Part shown: piece after piece, positions 36,814 to 59,840 of the stretch
How the letters are laid out: each line of letters begins with the position of its first letter
How positions within the stretch are numbered: the first letter of the stretch is position 1
NCBI RefSeq assembly: GCF_025150085.1
Contig: NZ_CP102280.1
Coordinates: 2,367,001-2,431,000 of the forward strand
Source: Dorea longicatena
GTDB taxonomy: Bacteria > Bacillota > Clostridia > Lachnospirales > Lachnospiraceae
Length of the DNA stretch: 64,000 nt
Direction: 5' to 3'
Notes under the pieces: generated by a model
Databases searched by the model: none
What the model saw: only the letters and a program-made list of their open reading frames with translations
What the model was told of the DNA's origin: nothing
Made by a program: the position numbers and the translations under genes

Positions 36814-36856
36814 CCCAAAACCAATTTTATTCTACCCAAAATCAGTATTTTTGCAT

Positions 36857-37822
36857 TTATCCAATCGTAGCTTCTGCTTTATAGTTTTTCGGATTCACTC
36901 CGTATTTCCTTTTGAAGGCCGCTGCGAAATTGCTCGCTTTTGAATATCCCACCAGTATAGCCACCTGGCTGACATTCAAATTACTTTCTAACAACAGGCT
37001 TGCCGCCTTTTCTAACCGCTGGTCGATGACATACGCATGAACCGATGTTCCGAACAGGGAGGAAAAGCCCTTCGTCAATTTTGAAGTGCTGATATTGACC
37101 TGCCGCGCCAATTCCTCGCAGCTCGGAGCCAGGGCAAGCTGGCTGTCAATAATTCGCTTTGCCTCTATGATGGAATCCCGGTCACTTCTGGAAATTGCAA
37201 CGTAGGTTGACGCGAGAATACTCAGCTCCAGGACCTCGCTCAAATATACCGATAGCAGCTCAAAGACCTTGCTTTCCAGAAACAGGTATCCCAACCCGCC
37301 GCGATATTGCGTAAAATCTTTTACCTCCGCAAAAATGTGTTCCATATACGGGGTAACGCTCACTTTTGAAATTCCTGTCAGTAATTTCTTTTCATAAGCG
37401 TTTATTTCACTATCTTCAAAGTAGTCATTCAAAATTTTGTGAAAATAGGGCATGGGAATTTTTATATTCTTGAAAAGAAAATCTTTCTTCCCGGAATAAC
37501 ACAAGTATTCCATTTTACCATGTCCTCGATAAATGCAGGATTCGCCTTTCTGGATGCTGACACTTTGACGCGCATCTGCAATATTCCACGATACGCCATC
37601 ATTGAAGCAAAATAAAAGTTGAATATAATCTTCGCAGCTTACACCCTGCACATTCATATCTGAAAAATAGTTCATTTTCCAGTCTGATACAACAGCTCCT
37701 TGCTTTGTAACAACTTGCGAAATCTGACCTGTTCCCATATCAGCCGGAATATCTATTGTCACTGTCTGCGGAGAGTTGGAGAGCAGATCGTGATACAGCT
37801 TCGTCATATATTGGTTTGTCAT
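36857..37822 (-). CDS. AraC-family transcriptional regulator
   Basis: A 321-aa protein. The C-terminal 100 residues carry both AraC HTH units (CEELARQVNISTSKLTKGFS and LNVSQVAILVGYSKASNFAA, then FKRKYGVNPKNYK). The N-terminal 200 residues resemble the ligand domain of YbtA/PchR-type siderophore regulators, though weakly. It probably activates the ECF and ABC operons when the siderophore is present. It is read from its own promoter (37862-37890). Confidence 0.88.
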   Translation of the reverse strand: MTNQYMTKLYHDLLSNSPQTVTIDIPADMGTGQISQVVTKQGAVVSDWKMNYFSDMNVQGVSCEDYIQLLFCFNDGVSWNIADARQSVSIQKGESCIYRGHGKMEYLCYSGKKDFLFKNIKIPMPYFHKILNDYFEDSEINAYEKKLLTGISKVSVTPYMEHIFAEVKDFTQYRGGLGYLFLESKVFELLSVYLSEVLELSILASTYVAISRSDRDSIIEAKRIIDSQLALAPSCEELARQVNISTSKLTKGFSSLFGTSVHAYVIDQRLEKAASLLLESNLNVSQVAILVGYSKASNFAAAFKRKYGVNPKNYKAEATIG

Positions 37823-39960: not shown

Positions 39961-42297
39961 TTACGCTTCGCCCGGCTTGGTCGTCATCAGGCGGTACAGT
40001 TTTGTATTTCTTGGAAACGAGTTTTCAAACGGCACCAGATTTCCGGAGCAGCGGATCAGTCCGTGGCCGGCACCTACATTGGTGATGTAGGATAACTGGT
40101 TGTCTGAAATATTCAGAAGTGCCGCCAGCTCATCCCGGTCGGTGGTAGCCTGATTCAAAAGGATCAGGAACTCACTGTTCGCCAGCATCAGGCGGGCGGT
40201 ATCGGATTTCAGAAGTTCCTCAACGTTCTGGGTAAGTCCGGTTACAAATCCGGAATACTTACGGATACGCTTGTACAGGCGGTAGAAAAAGTCCGCACTG
40301 TATTCATAGCGGAACAGCAGATAAAACTCATCCGCAAAGATCCATGTCGTTTTTCCCTTCTTCCAGTTCTGGATCACACGGTTAAAAATCGAATCCAGTG
40401 TGACCAGCATGCCAAGGGGCATCAGCTGTTCGCCCAGTTCCCGGATGTCATAGTCGATGATACGGCTCTTCGTGTTGACATTGGTTTCCTGGGCAAAGGT
40501 GTTCAGACTGCCATTGATAAACAGTTCCGAAGACAGAGCCAGCCCTCTGGCTTCTTCCTCCGGCTGGAGCATGAGTTGTCGGTACAGGTCCTTTAAGGTC
40601 GGCACCTGCCCTTTGTAACCGCCCCTCATGTAATCCCGGTACACATCTGCGGTGCAGCGGTCAAGGATGGATTTCTCCTTTGCCGAAAGGTTTCCGGCTC
40701 CTACGAGCTGCTCAAACAGGGAAAGGATAAATTCTGACTTTTCAATCAGAGGATTTCGGTCATTGCCATAGGCAGAATCCATATCCAGTGCATTCAGATG
40801 GGTATCTGAGGTTGCCGAGATCCGGATGACCTCTCCGTTTAAGGCTTCCACCAGAGAAGCAAACTCCGACTCCGGATCGAGGATGAGGATGTCATCTTCC
40901 GTGGAAAGGGCAAGGTCTACGATCTCCTCTTTTGCCGAAAAACTCTTACCCGAACCGCTGACTCCCAGTCGGAACGAGTTTCCATTTAACAGCTTCCTTC
41001 GGTCTGCCACCAGCATATTTTTGCTGACTGCATTCTGCCCATAATAAATACCGCCCGGCTGCATGATCTCCTGTGTATGGAACGGAATCAAGACGGCAGT
41101 GGACTCTGTGGTAAGGGTACGCACCGCATCGATCTTCCGCAGACCATACGGCAGGACGGTATTCAGTCCATCGACCTGTTGCCACTTCAAAGTTGCCATC
41201 TGGCAGAGGTGTTTTCTCGCAATGGAATACAGGGTTTCCGTATCGGAGTCCAGTTGTTTCTTGCTGTCTGCCATATGTACCATTGTCAGGATGCCGAACA
41301 TCATCCTCTGATCCCTGGTGGTCAGATCGTCCAGCATTTCCTTGGTCTCTTTTCTCTGCAGCTCCATGTCATAGGGAACTACGGCTGAAAAGTTATTGTT
41401 GGCATTCTGGCGTCTCTGCCAGTTGGTGACGTTTGTCTCCACGCCCAGCAGTCGGTTCTGGATCTCACGCACCGCTTCGTCTGTCGGTACGGGGATGATA
41501 TCAATGGACAGCATCAGGTTCCTGCCAAGGCTGCACAGTTCGGAGATCATCTCATCCTTTATATAGCTGGCGTAATCTTCCATAAAAAGGACTCTGCCGT
41601 ACTGCTCGCCCAGCTTGAAATGGTCGTTGTGGAACTCCATCGTGTCCGGGCAGATCCAGTCCTTGAAGCTGTGTCCCTTTTTCGCGAAGGCTTTCATGTC
41701 AAACGGAAAGCTCTGCGGAACGTCTGCCTTGAAAAAGTCCCGGAAGATCTGGAGCCTCTGTTCTGCATCCAGCTCTTCCCCGATGGAGGACAGCTTGGCC
41801 AGATGGGTGATGATATCCGTTCCCACACGGGCGAAGTATGTCCTGGCTTCATCGATGTTCTTCTTGTGGACGCTGACGGTCAGATAGCGTTCCTGGTAAA
41901 TGCTGTTGTTGGTACCGGAGATCTTGGAAAGGAGCATATTGTTATACTCTTTCCGGTACTCGTCCAGTCCATCTCCTTTCATTGGAATCAGCAGGGACTG
42001 CTCAAACTCTTCCTTGTTGATCTTACGGTTGTTCAGGGTGATCTTCGCCGTACAGCCGGAATCCAGTGCATTTAAAAGTTCGGAGTAGTCCAGGAACATC
42101 TCTGTCTTATCCGCTTTGCTGGCAATGGAATAGTTGATATCCGTAAACCGGAATGTCCGGGAATACTTGCTCTCCACCTGAAAAATACCGTCCGGCCAGA
42201 TCTTGCGGATCGGGATCGCCTGCTGGGCAGACCTCGGTACTTTGAATTTTTCTTTGTCCTGTTTCAGTGTCTGACTCAGGGTTTTAATCAAAGGCAT
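39961..42297 (-). CDS. VirB4/TraE-like conjugation ATPase
   Basis: A 778-aa protein with Walker A GVSGSGKSFSAKEE (about residue 455) and Walker B TWIFADEFYLLF (about 650). The N-terminal half is the VirB4 assembly domain. It drives type IV secretion channel assembly. The ATG at 42297 lies inside the end of prgI, and the stop is 31 bp before the hydrolase gene. Confidence 0.93.
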   Translation of the reverse strand: MPLIKTLSQTLKQDKEKFKVPRSAQQAIPIRKIWPDGIFQVESKYSRTFRFTDINYSIASKADKTEMFLDYSELLNALDSGCTAKITLNNRKINKEEFEQSLLIPMKGDGLDEYRKEYNNMLLSKISGTNNSIYQERYLTVSVHKKNIDEARTYFARVGTDIITHLAKLSSIGEELDAEQRLQIFRDFFKADVPQSFPFDMKAFAKKGHSFKDWICPDTMEFHNDHFKLGEQYGRVLFMEDYASYIKDEMISELCSLGRNLMLSIDIIPVPTDEAVREIQNRLLGVETNVTNWQRRQNANNNFSAVVPYDMELQRKETKEMLDDLTTRDQRMMFGILTMVHMADSKKQLDSDTETLYSIARKHLCQMATLKWQQVDGLNTVLPYGLRKIDAVRTLTTESTAVLIPFHTQEIMQPGGIYYGQNAVSKNMLVADRRKLLNGNSFRLGVSGSGKSFSAKEEIVDLALSTEDDILILDPESEFASLVEALNGEVIRISATSDTHLNALDMDSAYGNDRNPLIEKSEFILSLFEQLVGAGNLSAKEKSILDRCTADVYRDYMRGGYKGQVPTLKDLYRQLMLQPEEEARGLALSSELFINGSLNTFAQETNVNTKSRIIDYDIRELGEQLMPLGMLVTLDSIFNRVIQNWKKGKTTWIFADEFYLLFRYEYSADFFYRLYKRIRKYSGFVTGLTQNVEELLKSDTARLMLANSEFLILLNQATTDRDELAALLNISDNQLSYITNVGAGHGLIRCSGNLVPFENSFPRNTKLYRLMTTKPGEA

Positions 42298-42727
42298 CAC
42301 CCCTTCCTCCTGGCTTCTTTGGCTTCTTTGGTTTCTTCTGTTTCGTCCGCTTCTTCTCCAGAAGCTCCGCTCCGTTTCCCATCATCTTTTCACCCAGCCG
42401 CAGGCTCTCTTCCATGCAGGAAAAGTACAGGTTCTCTGATTTGAATACCAGCCGTTTCGGGTACAGCAGTTCGGATTTGATGACTGCCCATGCGAACTGT
42501 TCTGCCGTCATGCCGTGGTAACGAAAAAAGCCGCAGGCTGCAAAGGGAGCCGCCCCAAGGATGCACAGCCATCCGGTTACCTGTTCCCCGGCATATTTCC
42601 GGGTGACAAAATAGATTCCAAGGGCTGCCAGGATCGCCAGTACCGAAAATAAGCACTGCCGGAAGCTTAAGCCCCAGAACATTGACTCCTGATAGTCTCG
42701 GATTTCTTTATTCATTTTCACTTCCAT
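42284..42727 (-). CDS. PrgI-family conjugation membrane protein
   Basis: A 147-aa protein with two membrane helices (about residues 22-42 and 48-68) and the family opening IRDYQESMFWGLSFRQ. The C-terminus is very Lys/Pro-rich. PrgI is a VirB3-like inner channel component next to VirB4 in Gram-positive systems. The end overlaps the VirB4 start by 14 nt. Confidence 0.9.
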   Translation of the reverse strand: MEVKMNKEIRDYQESMFWGLSFRQCLFSVLAILAALGIYFVTRKYAGEQVTGWLCILGAAPFAACGFFRYHGMTAEQFAWAVIKSELLYPKRLVFKSENLYFSCMEESLRLGEKMMGNGAELLEKKRTKQKKPKKPKKPGGRGDAFD

Positions 42728-44473: not shown

Positions 44474-45304
44474 TCAAAAAAGCTCCCCGATGATGTCCTC
44501 ATCCAGAAGCAGTTCGTAATCGTCATATCTTGTTTCGTCAAATGTAAAATCATCATGCGCCAGCGGTGCTTTCGCATAATTGAACGGGCCGGCACCTCCG
44601 TCCTCGGTATACCGGATGTTGGGATGCTTCATCAGGTCATACTTGGCATCCAGTATGGGCCGCTCCCCGCGGATAAACAGAAGTGCATTCTGGTTATCCA
44701 GCATACGGACTTCATCCGGCTGTAACAGCTCCCTTCCGCTCTGCTGGAAGTTGGTGGAGTAGCTGCCGGATTTTCCTTTGGTCTGCCCGTAGGTGTTGGT
44801 GTCTATGGTTTCTTTCCCCAGTAATTCTGATACATATTTGTGTGTCTCTTTTTCATTGCCGCCCAGGTATAAAAACTCATCGCAGTTGCCCACCAGACTT
44901 TCCCAGGAGTCCTTGAACAGAGCCTTTAGCTGGCTCATGTTCTGGATGATGATGCTGCAGTAAATGGAACGGGAACGGCAGGTTGCCAGGATCTTCTCAA
45001 ACTCATTTGGCAGGGATACGTTTGGAAACTCATCCATGATGCAGTTGACCGGAACCGGGAGGGCACCGCCATGCACACGGTCTGCCATGTAATAAAGCGT
45101 CTGGAAAAGCTGGCTGTAGATCATGCCTACCAGATAATTCAAAGAGGTGTCTGCATCCGGGATACAACAGAAAAGGGCAACTTTTCTTTCTCCCATGTTG
45201 GAAAGATCCAGTTCATCAGTATTGGTCAGCTTGGCGATCTGCGGCAGATTGAAGGCTGCCAGCCGGACACCTACACTGATCAGGATGGACTTGGCGGTCT
45301 TTCC
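44474..45304 (-). pseudogene. VirD4/TraG-type coupling protein, C-terminal part (split by insertion)
   Basis: This is the downstream part of the type IV coupling ATPase. KTAKSILISVGVRLAAFNLP begins at the junction, and Walker B-like CIMDEFPNVSLPNEF and the IIQNMSQLKALF region follow; the end is acidic. In the intact protein YKQAAG joins KTAKS directly. Here a 9.83-kb transposon separates the halves at 45303-45304. Without a start this part is probably silent, unless translation initiates internally (for example ATG at 45196). Confidence 0.9.
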
Positions 45305-45348
45305 AGAGACGAAAAGTCAAGGACTTTTTCATCAAATTCAAAAAGAAG

Positions 45349-45507
45349 TTACATTTTGCGGACTTCCTCACGGAGCAGACGCTTGATTTTGTCCTCCATC
45401 GTCTCTTTTGCGGTCTGGCTGAAATGCACACGGACGATATAGGTTGTCTTTCCGATCTGCTTTCTGACAGTCGGGCAAGTGGCGGTGTTGGTTGCGGTAT
45501 TGTTCAT
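45349..45507 (-). CDS. tnpW: TnpW-family transposon protein
   Basis: A 52-aa protein, MNNTATNTATCPTVRKQIGK and then TTYIVRVHFSQTAKETMEDK..., ending in REEVRKM. This is the short conserved last gene of Tn4451-type elements. AGGAGG lies just before the ATG. It ends 45 bp from the transposon left end. Its function is not established. Confidence 0.8.
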   Translation of the reverse strand: MNNTATNTATCPTVRKQIGKTTYIVRVHFSQTAKETMEDKIKRLLREEVRKM

Positions 45508-45649
45508 TCAAAATCCTCCTGTAAATGAAAAATGCCCGGTGACTGTTCATCATCGGGCGGTGTCGGTATGAGGGAACAAGGCAAGGCGGCAACATTAAGG
45601 TATCTATAAAAACCTTGCCGTCTTTGCCATGCTTGCCGTGTTCCTGTTG

Positions 45650-47521
45650 TCAGTTGCGGAGATAGCAGATCCATGCTGTGCCGTCTTTCTCGGTCACAAG
45701 CCTGTCCCCGATACGGCTCTTTGCCGTTCTCATGGTGCGTGAGGAAATCCCACGCTCATTGACCGTCTTTTCCAGCTCTGCACTTGGCATACGCTTTCCA
45801 TCTGCCAGCAGTTCCAGAATGAGCATTTGCGCTTGTGCGGTCTTGCTCTCGGTCTTGGCGGTGTCTGTCCCGGCAAGAAGCTCGTCGGCGGTAATGTCAT
45901 AAGCTCCTATCCATTCAAAGCCTTTCTCGTCTCCCAGAGAAAAGGCAAGGGACTGTCCGGGCGGCGCAAGGGAGCTTTTCTCATGGATAAGCACCCTCGT
46001 TGTGGGGCTGTCCTTCAGCTTGCCGATAAAAAGCAGACTGCGGACTGCCGCCGTAATGTCGATAGACCCTAATCCCCGATAGGTGCTTTGCGTTCCTGCG
46101 GCTTTGTTCAGGTGTCCGATCAGCACGATAGCGCATCCGGTAGCCTGTGCAATGTCTCCCAGACTACGGAAGATGGGACGGACTTCATTTGCCCGGTTCA
46201 TGTCCACATCTGCGCCCAGAAACGCCTGCATCGGGTCAATGATAACCAGCCTTGCGTTGTTCTCTCGGATTGCTCTTGCGATGCGCTCATCAGCAAGGGT
46301 CAGCGGCGTGTCTCTATCATCAATAACAAGCACTCGTTCAAGGTCTGCGTCAGCTTCCATCAGCCGGGGCTTAACGGTATCGCCCAGACCGTCCTCGGCG
46401 GTCTGATAGATGATATTGAAAGGCTCAAGTGTCTCCATACCGGGTAAGGGCTTTCGGTTGGTGCAAGCCGCCGCAAGGCGCATAGCAAAGTAGGTCTTGC
46501 CCTCGCCGGGGTTGCCCTGTATGATGGTCAGCTTTCCAAATGGGATATACGGAAACCATAGCCAATCCACGCTCGTCAGCTCCACATCTGCCATACGGAG
46601 CATGGGGACAGGCTGGGCGGTGGGCAACTCTCGCAGCGTGATTGTCTCGGCTATGAATTTGCGGCTGGGAATGTCCCCCTGCTGACGGAGAACATCGTTC
46701 CAGTCTTTCCTTGCCGGGACAAGGCGAATGACGGCGATCTCGCCGGGAATGGACTGTGCCAGTCGGGTACAGGCTTCGCTTCCTGCGGTGTCGCTGTCAA
46801 GGCAGAGGAACACTTTTCGTGTGTCCTTGCGTTCAGAAAGGAAACGGTCAAGGGCTTTGCCCGAAACGCCGCCCAGGGCAAGATAATTTCTTGTCTGCCA
46901 ATCCTGCGGATAAAGGCAGATAAAGGACAAAAGGTCTATCGGTGCTTCAAAGACAAAGAGCTGGTTGCCGTTTCCCTCATAGCGGAACGGATAGGACTTG
47001 TCAGACCCGGCAATGTCCTGTCTGAATGGGTCTGCCGTTCCTCGCACATGGGCGTATCTCGGCGTACCGCTTCGGTCTCTGCCGACAAACACAACATTGT
47101 GCCGCTTTGCGTCCTCGTAAATATCCCCGGAAAGAAGAAAAGCCTCAACAAGCGTTTTGTTGAGACCTCGGCTTTCGCAAAGATATTGAATTGCTCTGTC
47201 GGCTGTTCTGTTGTGCAAGGGCAAGTGAAACGCTGTGGGCGGTGCTGTGCTGGCTTCGCTCTGTCCCTCGGCGCTTTCGCCGGTTAAGAGCTGGACTGCT
47301 TCGGGAAAGGACTTGCCGTAAAACTCCATGACAAAATCAATGGGATAGCCGCCCTTGCTCTGGCTGTGGCGAAACCATTTGTTTCCCCGGACGGTCAGGC
47401 TGTCATGTTCTTTCCAGCGGTATTCCCGTCCGCTTTTGATAAGCGTCTCTCCCTGTGTACGGAGAAAATCTTCCAGACTAGCGGCATTTGCCCGGTCAAT
47501 CTGCGCTTGGGTGTACTGCAT
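45650..47521 (-). CDS. Primase/RepA-like ATPase: CHC2-like, Toprim and RecA-like domains
   Basis: A 623-aa replication protein. Residues 1-90 are a CHC2/DUF3991-like region (REYRWKEHDSLTVRGNKWFR). The Toprim region has LFVFEAPIDLLSF (about 200) and VFLCLDSDTAGSEA (about 240). The ATPase domain has Walker A IIQGNPGEGKTYF (about 340) and Walker B RLVIIDPMQAF. A small winged helix ends the protein. It would prime and unwind the excised transposon circle. The start ATG at 47521 has AGGAGG upstream. Confidence 0.85.
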   Translation of the reverse strand: MQYTQAQIDRANAASLEDFLRTQGETLIKSGREYRWKEHDSLTVRGNKWFRHSQSKGGYPIDFVMEFYGKSFPEAVQLLTGESAEGQSEASTAPPTAFHLPLHNRTADRAIQYLCESRGLNKTLVEAFLLSGDIYEDAKRHNVVFVGRDRSGTPRYAHVRGTADPFRQDIAGSDKSYPFRYEGNGNQLFVFEAPIDLLSFICLYPQDWQTRNYLALGGVSGKALDRFLSERKDTRKVFLCLDSDTAGSEACTRLAQSIPGEIAVIRLVPARKDWNDVLRQQGDIPSRKFIAETITLRELPTAQPVPMLRMADVELTSVDWLWFPYIPFGKLTIIQGNPGEGKTYFAMRLAAACTNRKPLPGMETLEPFNIIYQTAEDGLGDTVKPRLMEADADLERVLVIDDRDTPLTLADERIARAIRENNARLVIIDPMQAFLGADVDMNRANEVRPIFRSLGDIAQATGCAIVLIGHLNKAAGTQSTYRGLGSIDITAAVRSLLFIGKLKDSPTTRVLIHEKSSLAPPGQSLAFSLGDEKGFEWIGAYDITADELLAGTDTAKTESKTAQAQMLILELLADGKRMPSAELEKTVNERGISSRTMRTAKSRIGDRLVTEKDGTAWICYLRN

Positions 47522-47532
47522 GAGCGTCCTCC

Positions 47533-47835
47533 TTACTTCTTGAAAACAGCGCATCGTCTGCAAATGCCATGCTCACGCTCGTCCAGCGTGTAGGGGCAGT
47601 TCGCACATTCCTCGCCGTTCTGTCTCATGATAACAGGCAGATAGCCCAGCTCCTGCAACATATCAATCTGGCGGTCGGTGAGGGTGGCTTCAAAGGCAAG
47701 GCATTTCCGGGTGTGTTCGTCCAGCTCGATCAGGTCGGAAAGCGGTCTGCCATCGGTCAAAGGTTCTCCGCTCAAAAGGAGTTTTGCCGTTCTGCGGATG
47801 GGGTTGTACTCGTTCTTCCAGTCGTATTTTTTCAT
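47533..47835 (-). CDS. Small zinc-ribbon transposon protein
   Basis: A 100-aa protein. The C-terminus CANCPYTLDEREHGICRRCA has two CxxC pairs suited to one zinc. The N-terminal part is helical and acidic, with no other motif. Its start overlaps the relaxase stop (ATGA), and it ends 11 bp before the primase start, so it is translated with the mobilization genes. Confidence 0.7.
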   Translation of the reverse strand: MKKYDWKNEYNPIRRTAKLLLSGEPLTDGRPLSDLIELDEHTRKCLAFEATLTDRQIDMLQELGYLPVIMRQNGEECANCPYTLDEREHGICRRCAVFKK

Positions 47836-49328
47836 CGTGTCATATCCTCCTTTTTGTGTCGTGTTTGGGGTCGATTTTGGAGCTTTTGTTCCTCTGTGCG
47901 CTCGTTAAATCGGGCGGCAGTATCTACACATGACTTGACCTTCCAAAGGCGGTGTAAATCGTCTCTGACGGTCTTAAACTCGCCATAGGTGGTGTTGTGC
48001 GCCTGTTCCAGCTCGTCATACTCTTCGGTCAGCTTTTTCATATCCACCTTGCCGTCCGGGAACTCTCCGGTCAGCTTACGTCTGGCGGCGTAGAACTGTT
48101 TCAGTTCCGCTTCATGCTCTGCCTTGTACTTAGCTCTGGGCTTCTCAAACTTGATTTTCTGCAAGCCGTCATAGACAGGCTTCAAGCTCTGGAAAGCAGC
48201 GGAGCTGTCATAGAGCTGCTTAATTGCTTTCATTCGGGCGGTCTGTTCGTCCAGCGTTTTCTTCAAGCTCTCTGTGGCAGCACTGTGTTCGCTGACACGG
48301 CGTTCCAAATCCTCAAGGGAGTAAATGCCGTTTGCCCGGAGATAATTGAAAGTATCGTTCATCTCCTTTAGGTTGCTGACCTTGCCTTTCTGCGAATATG
48401 CCCCGGCTCTGCGCTGGGTGTAATAGGCGTTCAGCAGAGAAACAAGGTCGGGTGCCTGCGGCTTGGCAAGCTCCGCTTTTGCTTCGGCAATCCAATCAAA
48501 CAGGAGAGCGATTTTCTTCTTGATGTCCCGGATAACGGCATTGGTTGCTCTGATCCAGCGGTTGAACTCGCCTTTCTCGGTGCGTATGCCTTTCTTCTCC
48601 ATTGCCCGGACGGTTGCGCCCTCATGGACGGTGGGAAGAAGCTCCACGCCCTGACGCTCATAGCTTCGGTGGTCGATACGAACATCAAGCCCTTTCTCCG
48701 CAAACTTGGCGTTGCATAGTTCCGCCCATGTCTGCCGCCAATGTTCCAGCGTTTCGGGACTGCCCCAGTCGGTAGTGGGAACGGCGTTGAACACAAACTT
48801 TCCGTCTCCGTCTCGGATACGGTTGCCGTCCTCGTCCAGCTCATACACCCGGCGTTGCTTTAGTCCCCATTTGCCGTTCTGCTCGATGGGGCGGATAGGG
48901 CAAAGCACATGAAAATGTGGATTGGGTATGCCGCCGTCCTCCCGGTCTGGCTGGTGTACGGCGAGGTCAACCACCATGCCCCGGCTCACAAAGTTCTCCA
49001 ATAAAAATTGCCTTGCAAGAGCGATGTTTTCCTCAAGGGAAAATTCATTCTGCAAGGCAATGTCAAAGCTGTATGCAAGCTGGGCGTTCTTTCCACGCTC
49101 GGCTTTTTCCACGGCGTTCCATAGGGTCTGGCGGTCTGCGTATTCGGGCGGTGCATGGGACGGCAGGAGAATGTCAGAGCAGATCACGCCGCCCTTGCGG
49201 GTGTAGTCGCTGTATTCGCCGTAATACTCGCTATACAATCGCTCCCCGGCACGGTAGGCGGCAGAAGCAATAGCGGACTGTCCTGCGCTTCGCTTAGTCT
49301 GCGTGACGCTCAGATGAAATAGTGCCAT
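47832..49328 (-). CDS. MobA/MobL-family relaxase (MobQ type)
   Basis: A 498-aa protein. The N-terminal 220 residues hold the relaxase domain, with a candidate catalytic Tyr near residue 25 (SAAYRAGERLYSEYY), the histidine cluster NPHFHVLCPIRP (about 137) and HRQTWAELCNAKF. The C-terminal half is a long coiled coil. It nicks oriT (predicted at 49952-49962) and pilots the strand, using the type IV channel of a helper such as the host ICE. Confidence 0.9.
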   Translation of the reverse strand: MALFHLSVTQTKRSAGQSAIASAAYRAGERLYSEYYGEYSDYTRKGGVICSDILLPSHAPPEYADRQTLWNAVEKAERGKNAQLAYSFDIALQNEFSLEENIALARQFLLENFVSRGMVVDLAVHQPDREDGGIPNPHFHVLCPIRPIEQNGKWGLKQRRVYELDEDGNRIRDGDGKFVFNAVPTTDWGSPETLEHWRQTWAELCNAKFAEKGLDVRIDHRSYERQGVELLPTVHEGATVRAMEKKGIRTEKGEFNRWIRATNAVIRDIKKKIALLFDWIAEAKAELAKPQAPDLVSLLNAYYTQRRAGAYSQKGKVSNLKEMNDTFNYLRANGIYSLEDLERRVSEHSAATESLKKTLDEQTARMKAIKQLYDSSAAFQSLKPVYDGLQKIKFEKPRAKYKAEHEAELKQFYAARRKLTGEFPDGKVDMKKLTEEYDELEQAHNTTYGEFKTVRDDLHRLWKVKSCVDTAARFNERTEEQKLQNRPQTRHKKEDMTR

Positions 49329-49653
49329 CGGCTTTCAGCTCCTTTTCTCTGTTCGCTTGGTTGGTGTGAGTAATCGCCATGTGCCGGACGGCTCGCTGGA
49401 CTTCGGACAGAGAAAAGATGTGTTCCATCAGCTCTGTCATTTCGGTGCGTGTGAGATCTTTGACCTCCGGGGCAAGGCTCTCAATCGTGCCGCCCAGATT
49501 GCAAAGGCGGTGGGTGCGCTTGGTGCGTTCGCCTTTCTCCAGATACTTCTTTCTGTTCTCCAGACGCTCCAGCTTGTGCTTCTCCTGTGCAAGCTGCGTC
49601 TCAGCTCGTTCCTTTTCGGCTCGAAGCTGATCGAGGGTTTTCGGTTTTGTCAT
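49294..49653 (-). CDS. DUF3847 relaxosome accessory protein
   Basis: A 119-aa, mostly helical protein: DQLRAEKERAETQLAQEKHK, then KRTHRLCNLGGTIESLAPEV and LMEHIFSLSEVQRAV. This is DUF3847, found before MobA/MobL genes; it probably assists relaxase like MobC. I chose ATG at 49653, with AAGGAGG upstream. It overlaps the relaxase start by 35 nt. Confidence 0.85.
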   Translation of the reverse strand: MTKPKTLDQLRAEKERAETQLAQEKHKLERLENRKKYLEKGERTKRTHRLCNLGGTIESLAPEVKDLTRTEMTELMEHIFSLSEVQRAVRHMAITHTNQANREKELKADGTISSERHAD

Positions 49654-49685
49654 TGTGATTGACCTCCTTTTTTGATTTTTGGGAT

Positions 49686-49732
49686 AAAAAAAGACCGTCA
49701 ACTTTTCGCACATTGCGACCAGTCAACGGTCT
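49686..49732 (-). terminator. Hairpin with T run in the leader of the mobilization genes (possible attenuator)
   Basis: The minus strand reads AGACCGTTGACT, a loop, AGTTGACGGTCT, then TTTTTT; two positions pair as G-T. It lies between oriT and the DUF3847 start, so it can end transcription before the mob genes unless relieved. Confidence 0.6.
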
Positions 49733-49764
49733 GATTTTCGGTATTTATTTTTCCAAACTTGCTG

Positions 49765-49990
49765 GCGGCGAACAGCATTTCATGCTGTTTGCGGACGGCA
49801 AGTCCACAAGGGATAGACGCACAAGCGTCGCAAGGGAGTGTAGCTCCCTTGACGGAACGAAGTGACGAAACATTTTCGGTCAAGCAGTTTTTCTCTGCTG
49901 ACCGGGAATGAAGCTCCGCAGGACGCACATACTCCCGATAGGAGAGTATAGAAGTGCGCCCTTTAGTTCCTAAAGGGATTTTCTTCTGAC
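49765..49990 (+). other. Origin of transfer (oriT) with RSF1010-like nic site and clustered hairpins
   Basis: AAGTGCGCCCT (49952-49962) matches the RSF1010/MobQ nic core, where cleavage is between G and CCC. Upstream an inverted repeat ATACTC/GAGTAT (49930-49950) sits at the expected place. Further hairpins are GCGAACAGCAT.. (49768-49792), AAGGGAG/CTCCCTT (49832-49850) and CGGTCA..TGACCG (49877-49904). The relaxase type agrees with this oriT class. Confidence 0.7.
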
Positions 49991-50035
49991 CCAAATTACA
50001 TAAAATGTAGATCAAGACATTTCTAAGAGGTACTC

Positions 50036-50644
50036 TCAGATTTTCACAACATAAGGTTCATCTTCAATAATACCCTGATCGTGGGTAACAATGATAACCG
50101 TTTTACCTTCTTCATTGAGTTCGTGCAATAACCTCATAACAATATCTCTATTTTTCTTGTCAAGTGAGCCAGTAGGTTCATCTGCCAAAACAACAGAACA
50201 TTTTTTCATCATAAGACGAGCTAAAGCAACTCTCTGTTGTTCACCACCGGAAAGCTGATAAACTTTTTTGTTAACTTCCTTTGATAACCCCACACGATTA
50301 AGAGCTTCTTTAAGTGATACTTTAGTTCGGCTTGATTTTTTAATCAAACTTAAATTTTCTTTAACTGTCTTATTTTCAAGCAGTGCAAAATTCTGAAAAA
50401 GAAACCCCACTGTATCCGCAAAAAAACTGTTTTTATTTTTAAGCCGGGTAATATTCAGCCCTTCGATTATGATACTGCCGCTATCCGGCTTTTCGATACC
50501 ACCAATCATATTGAGCAAAGTGCTTTTTCCACTGCCGCTATCCCCGCTGATTACTACAAAACTTCCATCCGGAATTTCCAAATTAAAGTTGGAGAAAATT
50601 ATTTTCTCTCCAAATGCTTTATTTAAGCCACGAATTATAATCAT
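50036..50644 (-). CDS. ABC transporter ATPase, lactococcin-972-type bacteriocin export/immunity
   Basis: A 202-aa ATPase of the LolD/MacB group. Walker A GDSGSGKSTLL is at residues 33-43, signature QLSGGEQQRVALA at about 130, and Walker B VVLADEPTGSLD at about 155. It pairs with the membrane protein directly upstream; ATG at 50644 overlaps its stop (ATGA). AT-rich codon use differs from the transposon backbone, marking it as cargo. Confidence 0.87.
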   Translation of the reverse strand: MIIIRGLNKAFGEKIIFSNFNLEIPDGSFVVISGDSGSGKSTLLNMIGGIEKPDSGSIIIEGLNITRLKNKNSFFADTVGFLFQNFALLENKTVKENLSLIKKSSRTKVSLKEALNRVGLSKEVNKKVYQLSGGEQQRVALARLMMKKCSVVLADEPTGSLDKKNRDIVMRLLHELNEEGKTVIIVTHDQGIIEDEPYVVKI

Positions 50645-52605
50645 AAACATCCACCTTTCAAGGACTTTGAGATATTTGTTTTTTCAACCCACATAACATT
50701 TGTGAAAATGATTGCCATTTCAATAATGGTGAGCAATGCTCCAACCAGTAAAGCAATCCCGACACTTGCGTTAGATATAAAAAGCGAAACAATGCAAATC
50801 AATATCACAACGGCTATATTTTCTAAGAGATTAACGGAAATAAATCTTTTGTGCCTTTCATAAAAGCGATAGCCCAAAACCTTTTTGAGGGAGATTTCCA
50901 TCGCATTAAGTCTAAATTCCATTTTCACTTCAGATATGATGATAGCGATATCTAACAGCAATACTAATACGCAAAGAGAGCTTATAAAGCCAATCAGTTT
51001 CACGAGGAAACTATGACTATAAGTATAATCCTCCCCGACATTCGTCAGCATAAAATAGTGTGGACCAAGCTGTTCTGCATATTTTTTCGCAGCATTACGA
51101 ATTGTGCTTTCATCGCATCCGTAGATCACCTCACCATTATATGTTCCTGTTTCGATATAACTTCCATTCAAAGCAACAGCCTCATTTGCCTGATAAATAA
51201 CAATCGGATTTGTTGCTCTTGACAATCCGTCAATAGCCTCTTCTCTGTTCGAATTGAGATAATAAAATTGCTCTCTGCCAGAATATTCTTTATAAACAAC
51301 ACGCAGTTCTTCTGCATTTTGGGTAAGAGAGTCAATTTCCTCTTTTGCGATATCTTTGTATGATTCCGCATTTTTTCCCTTTGGCACGAAGACCACGATA
51401 TCCTCTTTTTCATCATCTTCAGTAAGCATATCAGAAAACCCTTGCAGCATATCTCTGGCATTATGATTTACAAAAATATAATTATCCGTATCGCTTATCC
51501 GGCTGCCTATGCAGACCACCGGATTTATAGTGTTGTATTCATTTTCGTAAAGGTCATTCCAAAATTCGCTCTCTTTGGATTCCTCCTCATTTTCTTCAAA
51601 AGGAGGTTCAATCTGCATAACTCCAAAATAGTAATCATTATAATGATTTTCTAAAAGAGTAGTGTTTGTAAGTAAATTACCTTGAATGCTACTGAGATTT
51701 GTAGTTATTGTAAAAATCGTCATAGCAGTAGCAAATACTTTAAGACCGTTCAGAAGATAAAACATACCTTTTTTATCTGAAGCATTGGCAAAGGCTTTTT
51801 TTACATCAAAGCGGACAAAAGCAGCATAAGGAATTACGGAAAGAACTGCTCCGGCACAATACACTGCCAAAATGAGATGATCTTCATACGCTCCCGATAT
51901 AAATTGAGAAACAAGCAACTTTGCTAAGACGAATAATGCAGCATATGAAATCATATCAGCCACTACAGCTTTTAGAGCAATCACAGCAGCATTTTCGCCC
52001 AGAGAAGCTCGTACAACTACTTCCTTTTGTCTGCGTATCACCTCAATCATATTAAGTACAATCATCAATATGGCAACCAGGCCCCAAACAATGAACATCA
52101 TATCAGTTTCGGTTGATTGCCAAAACTCTGGCTGCGATATAGAATATTCTTTTGCCAAATCTTGATATGTGGCAATAATGTCATCATCGTCACCGATATA
52201 GCTGACCATTATTTCCTGTCCATTGCCTGTGTTTTTTGCTTCTCTAAAATCTTCAAATTCTATTACGGTGATTCCGCCTATCAAAGCCGTATATGTTTTT
52301 TCCTCAATATCCATTGTGCTTTTAAGACTATCCCGAACAACGGTATCATCACCATAAATATAAAGTCTTGTCTGATAATTAGAAACTCTCTGATTAAAAG
52401 TCGAAAAAATATGAACACCATGCTTCTCAGCTGTATCTTCTGCATTGGCTAAAAATGAATCCATATCGTCATTAGTAGTTGTGTATCTGGACGATAAATA
52501 ATAAGCACCATTAAAGTTCCAGAGCATATTTTGATATACTTCAGCTTGCATAACAAAAGCAAAAATAATCGTAATCAACAGCAATATATTTCTTATATGT
52601 TTCAT
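50641..52605 (-). CDS. Bacteriocin-associated integral membrane protein (DUF1430, immunity/export)
   Basis: A 654-aa protein with one N-terminal helix (residues 4-22), about three helices in 170-290, a large outside loop (300-540) and three more helices near the end. This is the layout of the DUF1430 lactococcin-972-associated immunity permease family. With the ATPase it should protect from, or export, a lactococcin-like peptide. AT-rich compared with the flanking mobilization genes. Confidence 0.82.
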   Translation of the reverse strand: MKHIRNILLLITIIFAFVMQAEVYQNMLWNFNGAYYLSSRYTTTNDDMDSFLANAEDTAEKHGVHIFSTFNQRVSNYQTRLYIYGDDTVVRDSLKSTMDIEEKTYTALIGGITVIEFEDFREAKNTGNGQEIMVSYIGDDDDIIATYQDLAKEYSISQPEFWQSTETDMMFIVWGLVAILMIVLNMIEVIRRQKEVVVRASLGENAAVIALKAVVADMISYAALFVLAKLLVSQFISGAYEDHLILAVYCAGAVLSVIPYAAFVRFDVKKAFANASDKKGMFYLLNGLKVFATAMTIFTITTNLSSIQGNLLTNTTLLENHYNDYYFGVMQIEPPFEENEEESKESEFWNDLYENEYNTINPVVCIGSRISDTDNYIFVNHNARDMLQGFSDMLTEDDEKEDIVVFVPKGKNAESYKDIAKEEIDSLTQNAEELRVVYKEYSGREQFYYLNSNREEAIDGLSRATNPIVIYQANEAVALNGSYIETGTYNGEVIYGCDESTIRNAAKKYAEQLGPHYFMLTNVGEDYTYSHSFLVKLIGFISSLCVLVLLLDIAIIISEVKMEFRLNAMEISLKKVLGYRFYERHKRFISVNLLENIAVVILICIVSLFISNASVGIALLVGALLTIIEMAIIFTNVMWVEKTNISKSLKGGCL

Positions 52606-52679
52606 TTAAAATTCTTAAACCTCCTTTGAATAGGTAACAGACACACGATTGCCCAAAATACTAATATGGATTTTTTCAT
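52602..52679 (-). pseudogene. Possible leftover bacteriocin leader peptide
   Basis: A 25-aa reading, MKKSILVFWAIVCLLPIQRR then FKNFK, with the positive N-terminus and hydrophobic core of a secretion signal. It ends overlapping the membrane protein start (TGA within ATGA). In lactococcin-972 operons the secreted peptide gene is just upstream of the immunity gene. Here only the leader-like part is seen. The ribosome site is weak, so chance is possible. Confidence 0.35.
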
Positions 52680-52732
52680 ACAACCACATTCTCTTGTTAG
52701 ATTCTAATTTTCCGTTTTCTTTATTCGCATAA

Positions 52733-52738
52733 ATTGTA
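52733..52738 (-). promoter_or_regulatory. Extended -10 element ahead of the bacteriocin immunity operon
   Basis: TACAAT on the minus strand with TGG directly before it fits an extended -10 (TGn); the -35 is poor. The position suits transcription of the leader-like peptide and the immunity/ABC pair separately from tnpX-tnpV. Confidence 0.4.
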
Positions 52739-52820
52739 CCATAAAACTCGTGAACAATTCTACCGCAACTTTGGACTACATGAGAAAAGTCCGAACAGTT
52801 TTCTGCCCGGACTTCCTCGC

Positions 52821-53165
52821 TCAATCATAAATCAATTCCACTTTCACAATCTCCTCTGCCTGTGCCTTGCAAGCGTTCATCTGCCGCACCCATTCCATTT
52901 GGTTTTCGGCTTTCAGTTGCTCGGTCACGCCGTTTTGCTCTGCCAGTGACCGCACGATCAGCTCCATGCGGTTTCGTGCTGTTTCGTCAATCTCGGCGCA
53001 ATGCTCAAAGAGCTTGTCGGATAGCACCAGCTCATTGAACAGTATCGGACGGTGCATTTCCAGATACGCCTTGCGAAGTCTGCCGTAGTGTCCGAGGGGC
53101 TTGGTCTTGCGGATAATGATGTTTGGGATAAGATAATCGCCGTTCTGTGTGTAAGTGATATTCAT
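52821..53165 (-). CDS. tnpV: TnpV-family transposon protein
   Basis: A 114-aa protein. GDYLIPNIIIRKTKPLGHYG, YLEMHRPILFNELVLSDKLF and QMEWVRQMNACKAQAEEIVK (near the end) are the conserved TnpV segments. It is found right after tnpX in Tn4451-type transposons. The start overlaps the recombinase stop (ATGA). Function not known. Confidence 0.9.
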   Translation of the reverse strand: MNITYTQNGDYLIPNIIIRKTKPLGHYGRLRKAYLEMHRPILFNELVLSDKLFEHCAEIDETARNRMELIVRSLAEQNGVTEQLKAENQMEWVRQMNACKAQAEEIVKVELIYD

Positions 53166-55048
53166 GCTGTTTGTACTCCTTTCATCGGCTCTCTCTGCGG
53201 TAAACTGCTGACAGGGACGAACACGCCCTTTGCAATGTCCTCCGCACGAATGGCGGCTTTCTTGGCTTCGATTTCTGCCTTTTTCCGCTTTTTGATTTTG
53301 TCCTCGTATCGCTTCTGTGCTCCGCTGGCTTTACGCTTCAAGTAGTTCTGATGAAGCCTGTCCTTGCGTTCCTCACGTTTGCGGATTTCCTCTAATTCTT
53401 CCGGGGTCAGCTCCACTTCTCCAAACGCCGGGGGAACAAATCGCCCGACAAAATTGAAGTAAATCTCGACCTCCTGTGTGGTCTGTATACTGCCTTTGCG
53501 GTCACGCTCATGCACAAGGATTTTCTCGATAAACTCGTTGAGCATAGCAATGGTCAGCTTGTCGAAGTTCTCGTATTTGTCAATCAGAGCGATAAAACGG
53601 TCAGCGTCCTTTTCGTGCTTCTCGTAGCTCTTGACTGCCTTTTCCAGAGCAGAGATTTCAGCGGTAAGCTCGGTCTGCTCCTTTTCGTATTGAGCGTCCA
53701 GAGTGGCGTATCTGCTGTCGGACAGCTTTCCTAAAATGTTGTCCTCATAGATTTTGCAGAGCAGGACTTCCAGCTCGGAAACTCTCTGCTTTGCTGTGGC
53801 AAGGCGTGTCCGCTGTTTCCTGACCTCTGCCGTCTGCTGGCTGGACTGTGCTTCCTGCACCACACGGACAAACTCGGCTCTGTCATGCTTGGCATACTCT
53901 GCAATGGCTTTCAGCATTTCAGAGACAAGGGACAGTACCACATCTTCATTGATACGGTGCTGTGTCGTGCAGAGCTTTCCAACTGGGACTTTGCTGTATT
54001 GGGAACAGGTGTATTGAGAAATGCGCTTGCCGTTATTGGTGCGGTGAACATACATCTTGCCGCCGCAATCGGCACAATAAAGCAAGCCCGTGAGGGGAGC
54101 TGCTTCGCCCCAGCCGTCCGGGTAGCGTCTGACATTCCCACGGATTTTCTGCACAAGGTCAAAGGTCTGCTGGTCAATAATGGCTTCGTGCGTATTCTCA
54201 AAAATCGTCCATTCGTCCTCTGGGACATAATGGCTTTTCTTGTCCTTGAAGTGCTTTCGGGTCTTGAAATTGATGGTGTGTCCCAGATACTCACGCTTTT
54301 CAAGAATGTTGCAAATGGTGGAAGAACCCCAGCCGTACACATCTTTGAAAGTCTTGTTTTTGTTCACGCCCTCGCCGTGTTGGGCAAGGTAAGCAGACGG
54401 AATAAGCACCTTTTCCGATTTCAGTTTGCTGGCGATCTGATACGGACCGTAACCCTCAATCGTCATGGCAAAGATGCGCTTGACCACCTCTGCGGCTTCG
54501 GGGTCAACCAACCATTGGTCTCTGGCTTCGTTCCAGAGATAGCCGTAAATGACCGTGCCTGTGAGGTGCTTGCCGGACTTGCCTTTTGACTGGAAAGTGG
54601 AACGGATTTTACGGCTGGTGTCTCTGGCGTAATACTCGTTCATAATGTTGCGGAAAGGGGTAAAATCATCGTCCCCTCTGGCACTGTCCACGCCGTCATT
54701 GATGGCGATAAGGCGAACGCCACGCTGACGCAGGATTTCCATAATCTGACCGACTTTCAGATAGTCACGACCCATGCGACTCATGTCCTTGATACACAGG
54801 TACTCCACATTCCCGGCTTCAACCTCTTTCATCATTGCCAAAAATCCGGGGCGGTCAAAGCAGGTGCCGCTAATGCCATCGTCTGTGAAATGGACAATGT
54901 TTGTAAAGCCCTGCCGTGCGGCGAACTCCTCCAACATAGCTTTTTGATTGGAAATGGAATTGCTCTCACGCTGTTGGTCATCATCTTTGCCAAAGTCATC
55001 ACGGCTCAGTCGTTCGTACAGAGCAGTGATTTTCTCGTTTTTTCTCAT
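53162..55048 (-). CDS. tnpX: Large serine recombinase, TnpX/TndX type
   Basis: A 628-aa recombinase. The resolvase domain holds the Ser nucleophile in ALYERLSRDDF (about residue 15). The recombinase domain follows. A zinc ribbon has CADCGGKMYVHR, then CSQYSKVPVGKLC (about 330-370). There is a coiled coil and a DUF4368-like end. It excises and inserts the transposon through a dinucleotide core (here CC/GG). GGAGCG lies upstream of ATG at 55048. The frame stays open upstream into virD4. Confidence 0.92.
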   Translation of the reverse strand: MRKNEKITALYERLSRDDFGKDDDQQRESNSISNQKAMLEEFAARQGFTNIVHFTDDGISGTCFDRPGFLAMMKEVEAGNVEYLCIKDMSRMGRDYLKVGQIMEILRQRGVRLIAINDGVDSARGDDDFTPFRNIMNEYYARDTSRKIRSTFQSKGKSGKHLTGTVIYGYLWNEARDQWLVDPEAAEVVKRIFAMTIEGYGPYQIASKLKSEKVLIPSAYLAQHGEGVNKNKTFKDVYGWGSSTICNILEKREYLGHTINFKTRKHFKDKKSHYVPEDEWTIFENTHEAIIDQQTFDLVQKIRGNVRRYPDGWGEAAPLTGLLYCADCGGKMYVHRTNNGKRISQYTCSQYSKVPVGKLCTTQHRINEDVVLSLVSEMLKAIAEYAKHDRAEFVRVVQEAQSSQQTAEVRKQRTRLATAKQRVSELEVLLCKIYEDNILGKLSDSRYATLDAQYEKEQTELTAEISALEKAVKSYEKHEKDADRFIALIDKYENFDKLTIAMLNEFIEKILVHERDRKGSIQTTQEVEIYFNFVGRFVPPAFGEVELTPEELEEIRKREERKDRLHQNYLKRKASGAQKRYEDKIKKRKKAEIEAKKAAIRAEDIAKGVFVPVSSLPQREPMKGVQTA

Positions 55049-55136
55049 AACTTGCGCTCCTTTCTTCGGTTTTAAGTTGTGTGTTCTAAGAGACTTCCCA
55101 ACCGCTTGATTAAGAAGTCTTTTAGAGCATACAACA

Positions 55137-56041
55137 CCTGCCGCCTGCTTGTAAATGTGATACTGCTTGACGGCAATGCTGTCCGGGTCCCGCATCTCCA
55201 GACGGTCAAACAAAATGTCCAGAGGGGACTCGTAGTCCTCGTCCTCTTCTTTTACCTGTGCCGAGCCTAACATCTCCATGATCATGGCGAAGTTCTGTTC
55301 TTCCGGTGGAGCTTCGTGGAGCAGATACAGCATCAGTGCCTGAAGCAGTGCGGTTTCGCTCTTCTCCCAGAAGGGATCGGAGGACTGGGAACCTTTGGGT
55401 GTGGTGTTTTGTATCAGATTGGAAATAAGACGGAGCACGTCTTTGTCATCGTGGACATACTCGAATGGATTGTAGCAAAAAGATGTGTCGGGATTGATGA
55501 GGTCAAAGACACGCACCTCATATCCTTTCTTTTCCAGCAGACCGCCTGTCTTTCGGAGCAGCTCGGCTTTCGGATCGGTGATGACCATCGAACAGCAGCA
55601 CTGCATGATGTTTGGCAGGGCAAAGCCTCTGGATTTTCCTGCACCGGAGCCTCCCACTACGAGAATGTTGAGACATCTGCGGTGCTTGTGGGTGTCAAGG
55701 CTAATGCGGAAGTTCTGTGTCAGCAGGATGTTCTGGGAGTACGGCTTCTGGCTATATTTCTTACAGATCTGCCGGGCATCGCCCCATCTGGCAGAGCCAT
55801 GTTCTTCCCCTCTGCGGTAGTTCTTCTGACTGGAATAAAAAATGCCGATCCCGGCTGCGTAAAGTAACGTGCAGACCAGCATCGACTTGATGGTATATTC
55901 CGTATAATGAAACTGGAAGGGATGGTTCAGCTTTTCTGTGAGAACCTCCATTAGCTCGAAAAGATTCCTGCCCGGCTGGATGGCATCCGCAAGCAGGATT
56001 GCTACCCACCAGATGACAGGCAGTCCGGCAAGCCAAATCAC
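55137..56041 (-). pseudogene. VirD4/TraG-type coupling protein, N-terminal part (split by insertion)
   Basis: This begins at GTG 56041 (MIWLAGLPVIWWVAILLADA) with two membrane helices, then Walker A VGGSGAGKSRGF (about residue 130), and ends at YHIYKQAAG. The rest of the ATPase is at 44474-45304. In the present state the frame continues through the transposon end into the serine recombinase, giving a possible 959-aa chimera. It lacks the Walker B and C-terminal regions, so no coupling activity is expected. Confidence 0.9.
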
Positions 56042-58544: not shown

Positions 58545-59840
58545 TCACCTGCTTTCTGTTCTCGGTTGTCTGTTTTTCTCCGTCTGCTCTTCCTGTTCTG
58601 CCTGCCTCTGGATCTGCTCTGCCAGACGCATCTTTTCTTCCATCTCTCTGGACTGCTGTTCGATCCGGATACAAAGGCGGATATCCTTCCGAAGCGGCTT
58701 TAGTTCTTCGGTGATCTGACCGATCCTGGCACTGTCCGGTTCGCTCCGGTAGAGCCGCTTCCGTTCTTTGGTGAGTGCCTGCACCTGTTCTTCCAATGGA
58801 ATTCGGTAGACAAGCAGCTCTTCACGGGTGGTGATCTGATGCTTCTGGAGAAATTCCATCTGCTCGATCCTGGCATCCAGTTTCCGGATATCTGCCCGGA
58901 GCACCGGGGAGATCCTTTTGGGTTTCTGCTTCAGAACACCCATCTGGTACAGATAGGAATAGTACAGGGCCTGTATCCCTTTTAACTTCTTTTTCGGGGG
59001 TCGGGAAGCTCCTTCTTTTCCAGCAGGTGTCCTGCTCTTTGGCTGCAAGATCCACTGTCGGATGCCCTCTTCCGAATAATTCTTCCCAAGGCTCCGCAGA
59101 CGGATATACCGTTCCATTCCCGGTGCTTTTAATGCAATGTACTTCCGGTTCAGCTTCCACTGGTATCCCCTCTGCTTCATCTGATCCAGGAACTGTTTCC
59201 ATGTGAAGCTCTCTGCCACTGCATCCCGGATATCCAGACGGATCGAGGTTCTCCAGGTCGGCTTTCCGTCCTGTTCTGCCATCCACTGGGCGTAGGATTT
59301 CCCCTTGCCGTTTTTCGGCTCGATGACGGATAAGCCGTATTTCAGGCATAAGGCATCCGAAGCTTTCCGCACATCTTCGTAGTAACTCCTGCTGTTGCTG
59401 TGATATTTTTTCCCATCTTCCATGCTCACGGAATTAAACACAATGTGGTTATGGTAATGCTCCGTGTTCAGATGGGTAGTGATCACTGCTTCGTATTTTC
59501 CCTGCAGGAGCCTTTTTGCCAGCTCCATGCCGATCCGGTGGGCCAGCTCTGGGGTGACTTCCCCTTTGGCAAAGCTCTGCACCAGATGGAAGCCCTGCAC
59601 CCCGTCCATCTTGTGGTATCGTTTCTTTGTAGCTACCATATCTTGATAGGCAGTCTCACAGACACAGCCGATGGCATCCTCAAAAATGGAACGCTCCGTC
59701 TTGTCCCGGTTCATGGCGTAATCAATGGCTTCTTCCAGAGAGCCGGCACTTTGCCCTTTTTTTGTGGTCTTATCCTTGTTTCGGATGTACGTGATGGAAT
59801 TGTCCAGACGGCTGACCGGGATGATACTGGTGTATGCCAT
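58545..59840 (-). CDS. MobP-type relaxase (relaxase/mobilization nuclease)
   Basis: A 431-aa protein. Catalytic histidines are in THLNTEHYHNHIVFNSV (about residues 121-137), with candidate Tyr residues near the front (ITYIRNKDKT, IDYAMNRD). The C-terminus is a helical, charged region. It nicks the ICE oriT and leads the strand into the recipient. MobC is encoded directly upstream and PcfB directly downstream. Confidence 0.92.
   Translation of the reverse strand: MAYTSIIPVSRLDNSITYIRNKDKTTKKGQSAGSLEEAIDYAMNRDKTERSIFEDAIGCVCETAYQDMVATKKRYHKMDGVQGFHLVQSFAKGEVTPELAHRIGMELAKRLLQGKYEAVITTHLNTEHYHNHIVFNSVSMEDGKKYHSNSRSYYEDVRKASDALCLKYGLSVIEPKNGKGKSYAQWMAEQDGKPTWRTSIRLDIRDAVAESFTWKQFLDQMKQRGYQWKLNRKYIALKAPGMERYIRLRSLGKNYSEEGIRQWILQPKSRTPAGKEGASRPPKKKLKGIQALYYSYLYQMGVLKQKPKRISPVLRADIRKLDARIEQMEFLQKHQITTREELLVYRIPLEEQVQALTKERKRLYRSEPDSARIGQITEELKPLRKDIRLCIRIEQQSREMEEKMRLAEQIQRQAEQEEQTEKNRQPRTESR

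Follow-up and report, generated by a model that had tools for sequence, protein, structure and literature searches.

A mobilizable element that splits the virD4 gene of a Dorea longicatena conjugative element at a recurrent codon

Our findings concern a 64,000-nucleotide stretch (the window; positions 2,367,001 to 2,431,000 of contig NZ_CP102280.1, or G000:C1:2367001-2431000) of the single-contig 2.92-Mb genome of Dorea longicatena, in which virD4, the coupling-protein gene of an integrative and conjugative element (ICE), is interrupted between its Walker A part and its Walker B part by one 9,834-bp element. Judged by its genes, this is an integrative mobilizable element (IME) of the serine-recombinase and MobQ class. 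We read it, with a probability of about 0.85, as an IME whose recombinase is specialised for one VirD4 codon boundary of Tn1549/Tn5252-superfamily ICEs and which splits virD4 until the reverse reaction takes place. The genes discussed (virD4, those of the IME and those of the ICE) all lie on the minus strand, on which the sequence is ...GCGGCA-GG-TGTTGTATGC across the left junction (GG = 55138-55137) and ...CGTCTCT-GG-AAAGACCGCC across the right end (GG = 45304-45303). The GG belongs to the Gly-Lys codons of VirD4, in the context AAG|KT.KSI. The original prediction had placed a single transposon, flanked by a 2-bp repeat, between the two virD4 parts; the repeat proves to be an exact GG core, the predicted interval of 45303..55138 is correct to within that repeat (Table 1), and the predicted joined length of 1734 nt agrees with the added lengths of the two parts (905 + 829 nt = 1,734).

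The target was surveyed in a scan of one genome per species, in which 433 stretches encode a relative of the recombinase and the best 80 were kept and examined. Seventy of these 80 loci lie at the same VirD4 codon as the window, seven lie elsewhere at a GG, and three (L026, L036, L075), each at a contig edge, are undecidable. At 66 of the 80 the VirD4 5' part ends at the GG with the left end of the element directly after it (66/66 on recount), and in all 66 the recombinase is co-directional with virD4; L008 was assigned to the codon by a flush left end, and L028, L035 and L041 by their right ends. Loci from the viral collection numbered 11, six of them at the codon and five not assignable. Among 15 listed codon loci with recombinases at least 98% identical (a comparison that left out L017, at 98%), the VirD4 5' part shares only 35-73% identity with that of the window, and the element therefore moves apart from the ICE. 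A right-end pattern applied with at most one mismatch to 200 genomes of the family gave eight matches, 8/8 ending a single base short of the Lys codon in a VirD4 C-part, while the reversed control pattern gave zero matches in the same 200 genomes, among the matches listed; the placement of the right-end matches is not chance. The earlier suggestion that the element may parasitise the same ICE type is thus well supported at family level, with 70/80 loci at the VirD4 codon.

A census of VirD4 sites in the 200 family genomes, 68 of which hold a VirD4 C-part match at the limit used, bears on the same specificity. Among the matches listed, 138 sites were readable and 14 of them were occupied. Sites with GG followed by Lys were occupied in 14 cases and free in 84 (14/98), and all other types were free in 40 cases and occupied in none (0/40; Fisher p = 0.010, relatedness not corrected), so that VirD4 types without this site were not found occupied among the sites read. 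The count left out L217, L135 (a duplicate of L096), rows not starting at the site and listed rows such as G039:C150, G081, G194, G148:C5 and G015:C39, and took the window (L095) once as occupied. Six of the 14 occupied sites hold diverged elements with other right ends, for which both VirD4 parts were seen in L243, L244 and L248 and the right junction alone in L245, L246 and L247; in L247 a recombinase or relaxase relative was not found at the limit used. As a separate observation, some virD4 genes that hold this IME carry further inserts. In L006, L008 (two) and L053, inserts with reverse transcriptase open reading frames (ORFs; PF00078) stand at other sites; they are group II intron-like, one has a type II intron maturase domain, and that of L053 lies in virD4 upstream of the IME site. 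In L014 (L014:3921-9452) and L074 (L074:824-9400) a second serine-recombinase element occupies another virD4 site (at about residues 143-162), leaving the genes doubly occupied, and an EF-G-like gene, which may be of the ribosomal-protection type, is part of the second element of L074. In L041 the recombinase copy is damaged, and upstream lies a second VirD4 gene in opposite orientation with its two parts adjacent.

A natural empty site is present in a near-identical ICE of another genome (G138, locus L096). There, both 40-bp flanks are contiguous and identical to those of the window and the element is absent; identity to the window is 99.5% over 1,498 bp upstream and 99.0% over 2,326 bp downstream, and the virD4 gene of the empty site is a 632-amino-acid (aa) open frame. 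C-parts 99% identical to that of the window lie in 632-aa frames in G169, G027 and G118, and three further genomes (L097-L099) show the same uninterrupted arrangement at 92-98% DNA identity. In the six intact loci compared (L096-L101) no base is gained or lost at the junction. Within the window, the 5' part of virD4 contains GGSGAGKS, which we take to be Walker A, and the 3' part contains DEF, presumably Walker B, so that neither is expected to work as an ATPase without the other. The 3' part is nearest to the model NF045973 (VirD4-like CD1115), at 244.9 bits against a cut-off of 250 that is set for whole proteins; the family-library scan covered this part, and the 5' part aligns with the same relatives that carry it.

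The two ends of the IME carry promoter-like hexamers that would be brought together only on circularization. TTGACT lies 12 nt from the end of the right GG and TATGCT lies 5 nt past the left GG, so the pair stands 17 bp apart only in the circle. This spacing recurs in 25/25 loci with both ends found, using search patterns that required TTGAC and TA[TA]G[CT]T. When the hexamers were not required, the right ends of 35 loci (33 reached via the VirD4 C-part, the window and L256 via coordinates) comprised 12 different sequences, all with TTGACA (6), TTGACT (4) or TTTACA (2) at the same distance, and in a 58%-identical element TTGACA is paired with TAGAAT at 17 bp. Right-end bases downstream of the -35-like hexamer are variable, and one type of left junction among the loci is AAATACAAG. 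The background in the window is about 0.30 hexamer pairs this good per kb per strand. For Tn4451, a tnpX promoter formed in the circular intermediate has been described (Lyras and Rood 2000).

Within the favoured reading, the recombinase would join the GG of the circular joint with the GG of the VirD4 Gly-Lys codons (AAG|KT.KSI), splitting virD4, and the reverse reaction would release the IME and leave virD4 whole. Because the recombinase lies within virD4 and in the same direction, transcription of the ICE operon through virD4 is a plausible trigger of excision. After excision, VirD4 of the same or of a co-resident ICE would, with the mating pore, export the ICE and likewise the IME circle, which would be nicked by the MobQ relaxase of the IME. 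A promoter forming across the circle joint, with its -35 from the right end and its -10 from the left end, would then drive the recombinase and lead to re-integration in the recipient. The original prediction that the ICE becomes competent after excision corresponds to a hypothesis published for such IMEs (PMC5357655, PMC5704250) and may hold for this copy. A more speculative extension, about which we are doubtful, is that the IME acts as a conjugation lock that reads the state of the ICE: its promoter would be cut by integration and remade in the circle, the integrated copy would in most hosts be activated only by read-through of virD4, the ICE would transfer only from cells with a circular IME, and alleles in which Gly-GG has become Ala-GC (the SGSA-KTLKS type) would represent natural ICE resistance.

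Several observations weigh against the reading we favour. Seven loci lie outside VirD4 (L022, L025, L027, L029, L050, L068, L070); in all seven a GG stands where expected, 90-109 bp ahead of the recombinase, though the search pattern itself demanded GG. DUF4368, present in the recombinase, is described as typical of multi-targeting recombinases in a scheme that clusters target genes at 50% identity (Durrant 2022, PMC10083194); a codon-faithful recombinase that hits VirD4 genes less than 50% identical would be scored as multi-targeting in that scheme. The subsets of the census are not significant (no-GG sites 0/22, p = 0.07; GG followed by Asp 0/18, p = 0.12). At the right end, conservation is almost as high (83-100%) in the bases immediately upstream of the -35-like hexamer as in the hexamer itself, which fits binding of the recombinase better than transcription and makes such binding an alternative reason for the conservation. 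Moreover, the virD4 flank in the window supplies TTTACA 18 bp from TATGCT, a pair with 9/12 matches that was also recovered by a blind scan; the circle pair likewise has 9/12, and the recombinase therefore need not be silent when integrated. A 5/6 hexamer in the virD4 flank occurs at 7/80 scored left junctions, the window included, and with the flank TTTACA this weakens the idea of an element silent when integrated. The genome has this recombinase only once (the next best is 35-36% identical), and the excised form of this IME copy was not seen. Finally, the frame running from virD4 into the recombinase is not conserved, with an early TGA in the other sub-family, and a functional VirD4-recombinase fusion (a 959-aa ORF) was rejected because this TGA stands just past the junction there.

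The most serious alternative, one we hold to be quite possible if somewhat improbable, is that the insertion is irrelevant to ICE transfer since VirD4 is supplied in trans by a co-resident ICE. Two more VirD4 genes lie on the chromosome. The first, at 212540-213358, is 79% identical across the C-part, has a 586-aa frame and shows GG, KTAKSIL and a free site; the second, at 932726-933565, is 63% identical, has a 617-aa frame, reads SGSA-KTLKS and lacks GG. There are also two further VirB4 genes, one of them 86% identical. These genes could act in trans for the split ICE, and another VirD4 frame of at least 586 aa is present in 8/8 right-end-matched genomes, where it must be borne in mind that VirD4-rich genomes are likelier to hold an occupied one anyway; against this, cross-compatibility of these VirD4 proteins would have to be assumed. 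The earlier conclusion that the ICE is transfer-defective was therefore too strong, because a co-resident ICE may supply VirD4. The same two further VirD4 and VirB4 genes also lend something to a second alternative, which we consider unlikely, namely that the insertion is effectively permanent here, with this ICE a stranded host and the IME spreading via the two other ICEs; it sits poorly with the recombinase, TnpV, TnpW, relaxase and both ends, which look intact, with the VirB4, relaxase and CHAP genes of the ICE, which are still open frames, and with near-identical relatives in many genera and in three VirD4 genes of one assembly. That a low-specificity Tn4451-like transposon landed in virD4 by chance, as its TnpX-like domains with DUF4368, TnpV, TnpW, 2-bp repeat, the 7/80 loci elsewhere at a GG and an inspected Campylobacter coli plasmid copy outside virD4 might suggest, is highly improbable and largely contradicted by the survey, which places 70/80 loci at the same codon across very different ICEs and hosts and 8/8 right-end matches at VirD4.

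Disruption of virD4 by serine-recombinase IMEs and its reversal on induction of conjugation are already in print, the first as observation and the second as hypothesis. Serine-recombinase IMEs in traG/virD4 of Tn5252-superfamily ICEs have been described, 12/16 serine IMEs with a MobQ relaxase, and it was proposed that the IME is driven out, and VirD4 thereby restored, once conjugation is induced (Coluzzi 2017, PMC5357655; Guédon 2017, PMC5704250). Among the titles and abstract openings listed by our literature searches, none deals with the exact codon, with VirD4 types that lack GG or with a promoter split in this way in the IME family, which is no proof of absence. What we add is codon-exact targeting across very different VirD4 genes, hexamers split between the ends, and site-less VirD4 types that were not found occupied. 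Among known systems, Tn6104 in Tn6103 of Clostridioides difficile R20291 shares a TnpX-related recombinase, TnpV, a MobA/MobL relaxase, ABC cargo and a 2-bp repeat (PMC3158075) and lies inside traG/virD4 of a CTn5-like ICE (PMC5704250). Unlike our element, Tn6104 is 15.6 kb long with other cargo (PMC3158075); the comparison covers gene content and target gene. Its excision was shown, and its authors suggested that insertions may explain the unobserved transfer of Tn6103 (Brouwer 2011, PMC3158075). IME_Sco1050_traG_site1/site2 and the class 5 streptococcal IMEs likewise have a serine integrase (a Ser_1 family targets traG), MobQ and insertion in ICE genes including VirD4 (PMC5357655, PMC5704250), but have other hosts; here the comparison covers integrase, relaxase and target gene. 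A 2026 paper gives the known class 5 sites as traG, maff2, snf2 and rumA and adds topA (PMC13214566); its class 5 HLGR_IME resembles our element in lying within a gene of Tn5252-type ICEs and in a wide host range reaching Gram-negatives, and differs in its topA target and resistance cargo. The IME_oriT elements in the origin of transfer (oriT) of Tn916/ICESt3 are also IMEs parked in an ICE transfer site, but with a tyrosine integrase, an oriT target and a MobT relaxase (PMC5704250). Our findings highlight a recombinase lineage that lives mostly off one codon of a conjugation motor gene, and allow VirD4 occupancy to serve as a simple genomic sign of an ICE's ability to act alone. They also make the published expulsion-on-conjugation proposal testable via small promoter and recombination assays, and they caution that a recombinase scored as multi-targeting, with target genes more than 50% different, may in fact keep to a single codon of a single protein family.

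From its left end, the IME encodes the recombinase, TnpV, an ABC permease and ATPase, an oriT-like hairpin, a DUF3847 protein, the MobQ relaxase, a small ORF, a primase-helicase and TnpW (Table 1). With a single large serine recombinase at one end, its own relaxase, a very short repeat and an insertion within a VirD4 gene, it has the features of virD4/traG-nested serine IMEs, and the relaxase that had been predicted is confirmed. Type IV secretion system families were not found among the scanned ORFs of the element, and no resistance model was above cut-off for the 20 window proteins scanned (among the best 25 families per protein); two large ABC exporters in the window match Tet(46) models far below cut-off. 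The Tn4451-type label first given to the element holds, at the level of domain families, for its TnpX-like domains, TnpV and TnpW, which Tn4451/Tn4453 share. It does not hold for the relaxase, which is MobQ and not MobV, nor for the target, a GG at one VirD4 codon and not many GA sites; Tn4451/Tn4453 are reported to use GA at many sites with low specificity and to carry a MobV relaxase and a cat gene (PMC5704250).

Table 1. Coordinates, in the window, of the split virD4 gene, the inserted IME and the core genes of the host ICE.
Feature	Position	Strand	Remarks
virD4 5' part	55137..56041	-	905 nt; 301 codons and the GG of the split Gly codon; contains GGSGAGKS
Left core dinucleotide GG	55137..55138	-	
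IME	45303..55136	-	9,834 bp including one GG core copy
TATGCT, -10-like hexamer	55126..55131	-	left end
Large serine recombinase, TnpX-like	53162..55048	-	Resolvase, Recombinase, Zn ribbon, DUF4368; co-directional with virD4
TnpV	52821..53165	-	PF14198
Cargo DUF1430 permease	50641..52605	-	PF07242; sub-cut-off match to bacteriocin-associated membrane protein
Cargo ABC ATPase	50036..50650	-	best match a bacteriocin-export ABC model, 246.7 bits (cut-off 254.85)
Candidate oriT	49919..49970	+	hairpin then AAGTGCGCCC; kept in relatives
DUF3847 protein	49294..49713	-	PF12958
MobQ relaxase	47832..49328	-	NF041496 above NCBIfam cut-off; PF03389
Small ORF	47533..47835	-	no family match
Primase-helicase-like protein	45650..47563	-	DUF3991/Toprim/AAA_25
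TnpW	45349..45507	-	PF14202
TTGACT, -35-like hexamer	45315..45320	-	right end
Right core dinucleotide GG	45303..45304	-	
virD4 3' part	44474..45302	-	829 nt; contains DEF; nearest model NF045973
Host ICE VirB4-like, CD1110 family	39961..42300	-	NF045971 above cut-off
Host ICE relaxase, MobA/VirD2 type (MobP)	58545..59840	-	PF03432

Near-identical relatives of the recombinase are spread across many genera, and its lineage is found in records of Lachnospiraceae, Oscillospiraceae and Erysipelotrichaceae and, with the element, on Campylobacter plasmids. A Pusillibacter faecalis megaplasmid holds the element at 96.5% identity over 97% of its length, again splitting VirD4, and three C. coli plasmids hold it at about 95% identity over 61-72%; megablast found no matches to the element in E. 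coli genomes. In the one C. coli plasmid inspected (pCC14983A-1, L256), the element stands at a GG with no adjoining VirD4 and has aminoglycoside phosphotransferase genes inside; the IME backbone is here 95% identical in another phylum, and the right flank lies in a gene annotated as UV damage repair protein. The draft assembly of Subdoligranulum variabile TSDC17.2-1.1 has three left and three right junctions in VirD4 genes, a sign of recent movement between ICEs, provided that the assembly represents one strain. An 8,501-bp 'circular' Subdoligranulum record was considered as an excised circle and rejected as a collapsed repeat, because it has GG at both ends, all seven contigs inspected are labelled circular, and six overlap the record by 124-125 bp.

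The oriT that had been predicted for the element corresponds to the candidate hairpin of Table 1, and many relatives keep a hairpin with different paired sequences and the same motif, AAGTGCGCCC, which presumably resembles RSF1010-type nick regions. In L013, L014, L044 and L084 the oriT-like hairpin, with AAGTGCGCC, is present a second time, upstream of another MobQ gene; this MobQ is 35-38% identical to that of the IME and probably belongs to the host ICE. From these arrangements, transfer seems to start at the same kind of site in the IME and in some host ICEs. In the ICE of the window itself there is no such second hairpin, and the relaxase is of the MobP type.

The host ICE has the marks of the Tn1549/Tn5252 superfamily, with a CD1110-type VirB4, a CD1115-type VirD4 (the fragment falling just under cut-off) and a MobP-type relaxase. 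Three adjacent tyrosine recombinases at 19984-24376 of the window (PF00589 each), which we liken to a Tn554-type trio, form a possible integration module of this ICE. Beside the ICE core, the cargo at 29809-37822 comprises an AraC-type regulator, an MptD-like energy-coupling factor (ECF) S component with a T component and ATPase, two MsbA-like ABC exporters and a repressor-like ORF, the last read by eye.

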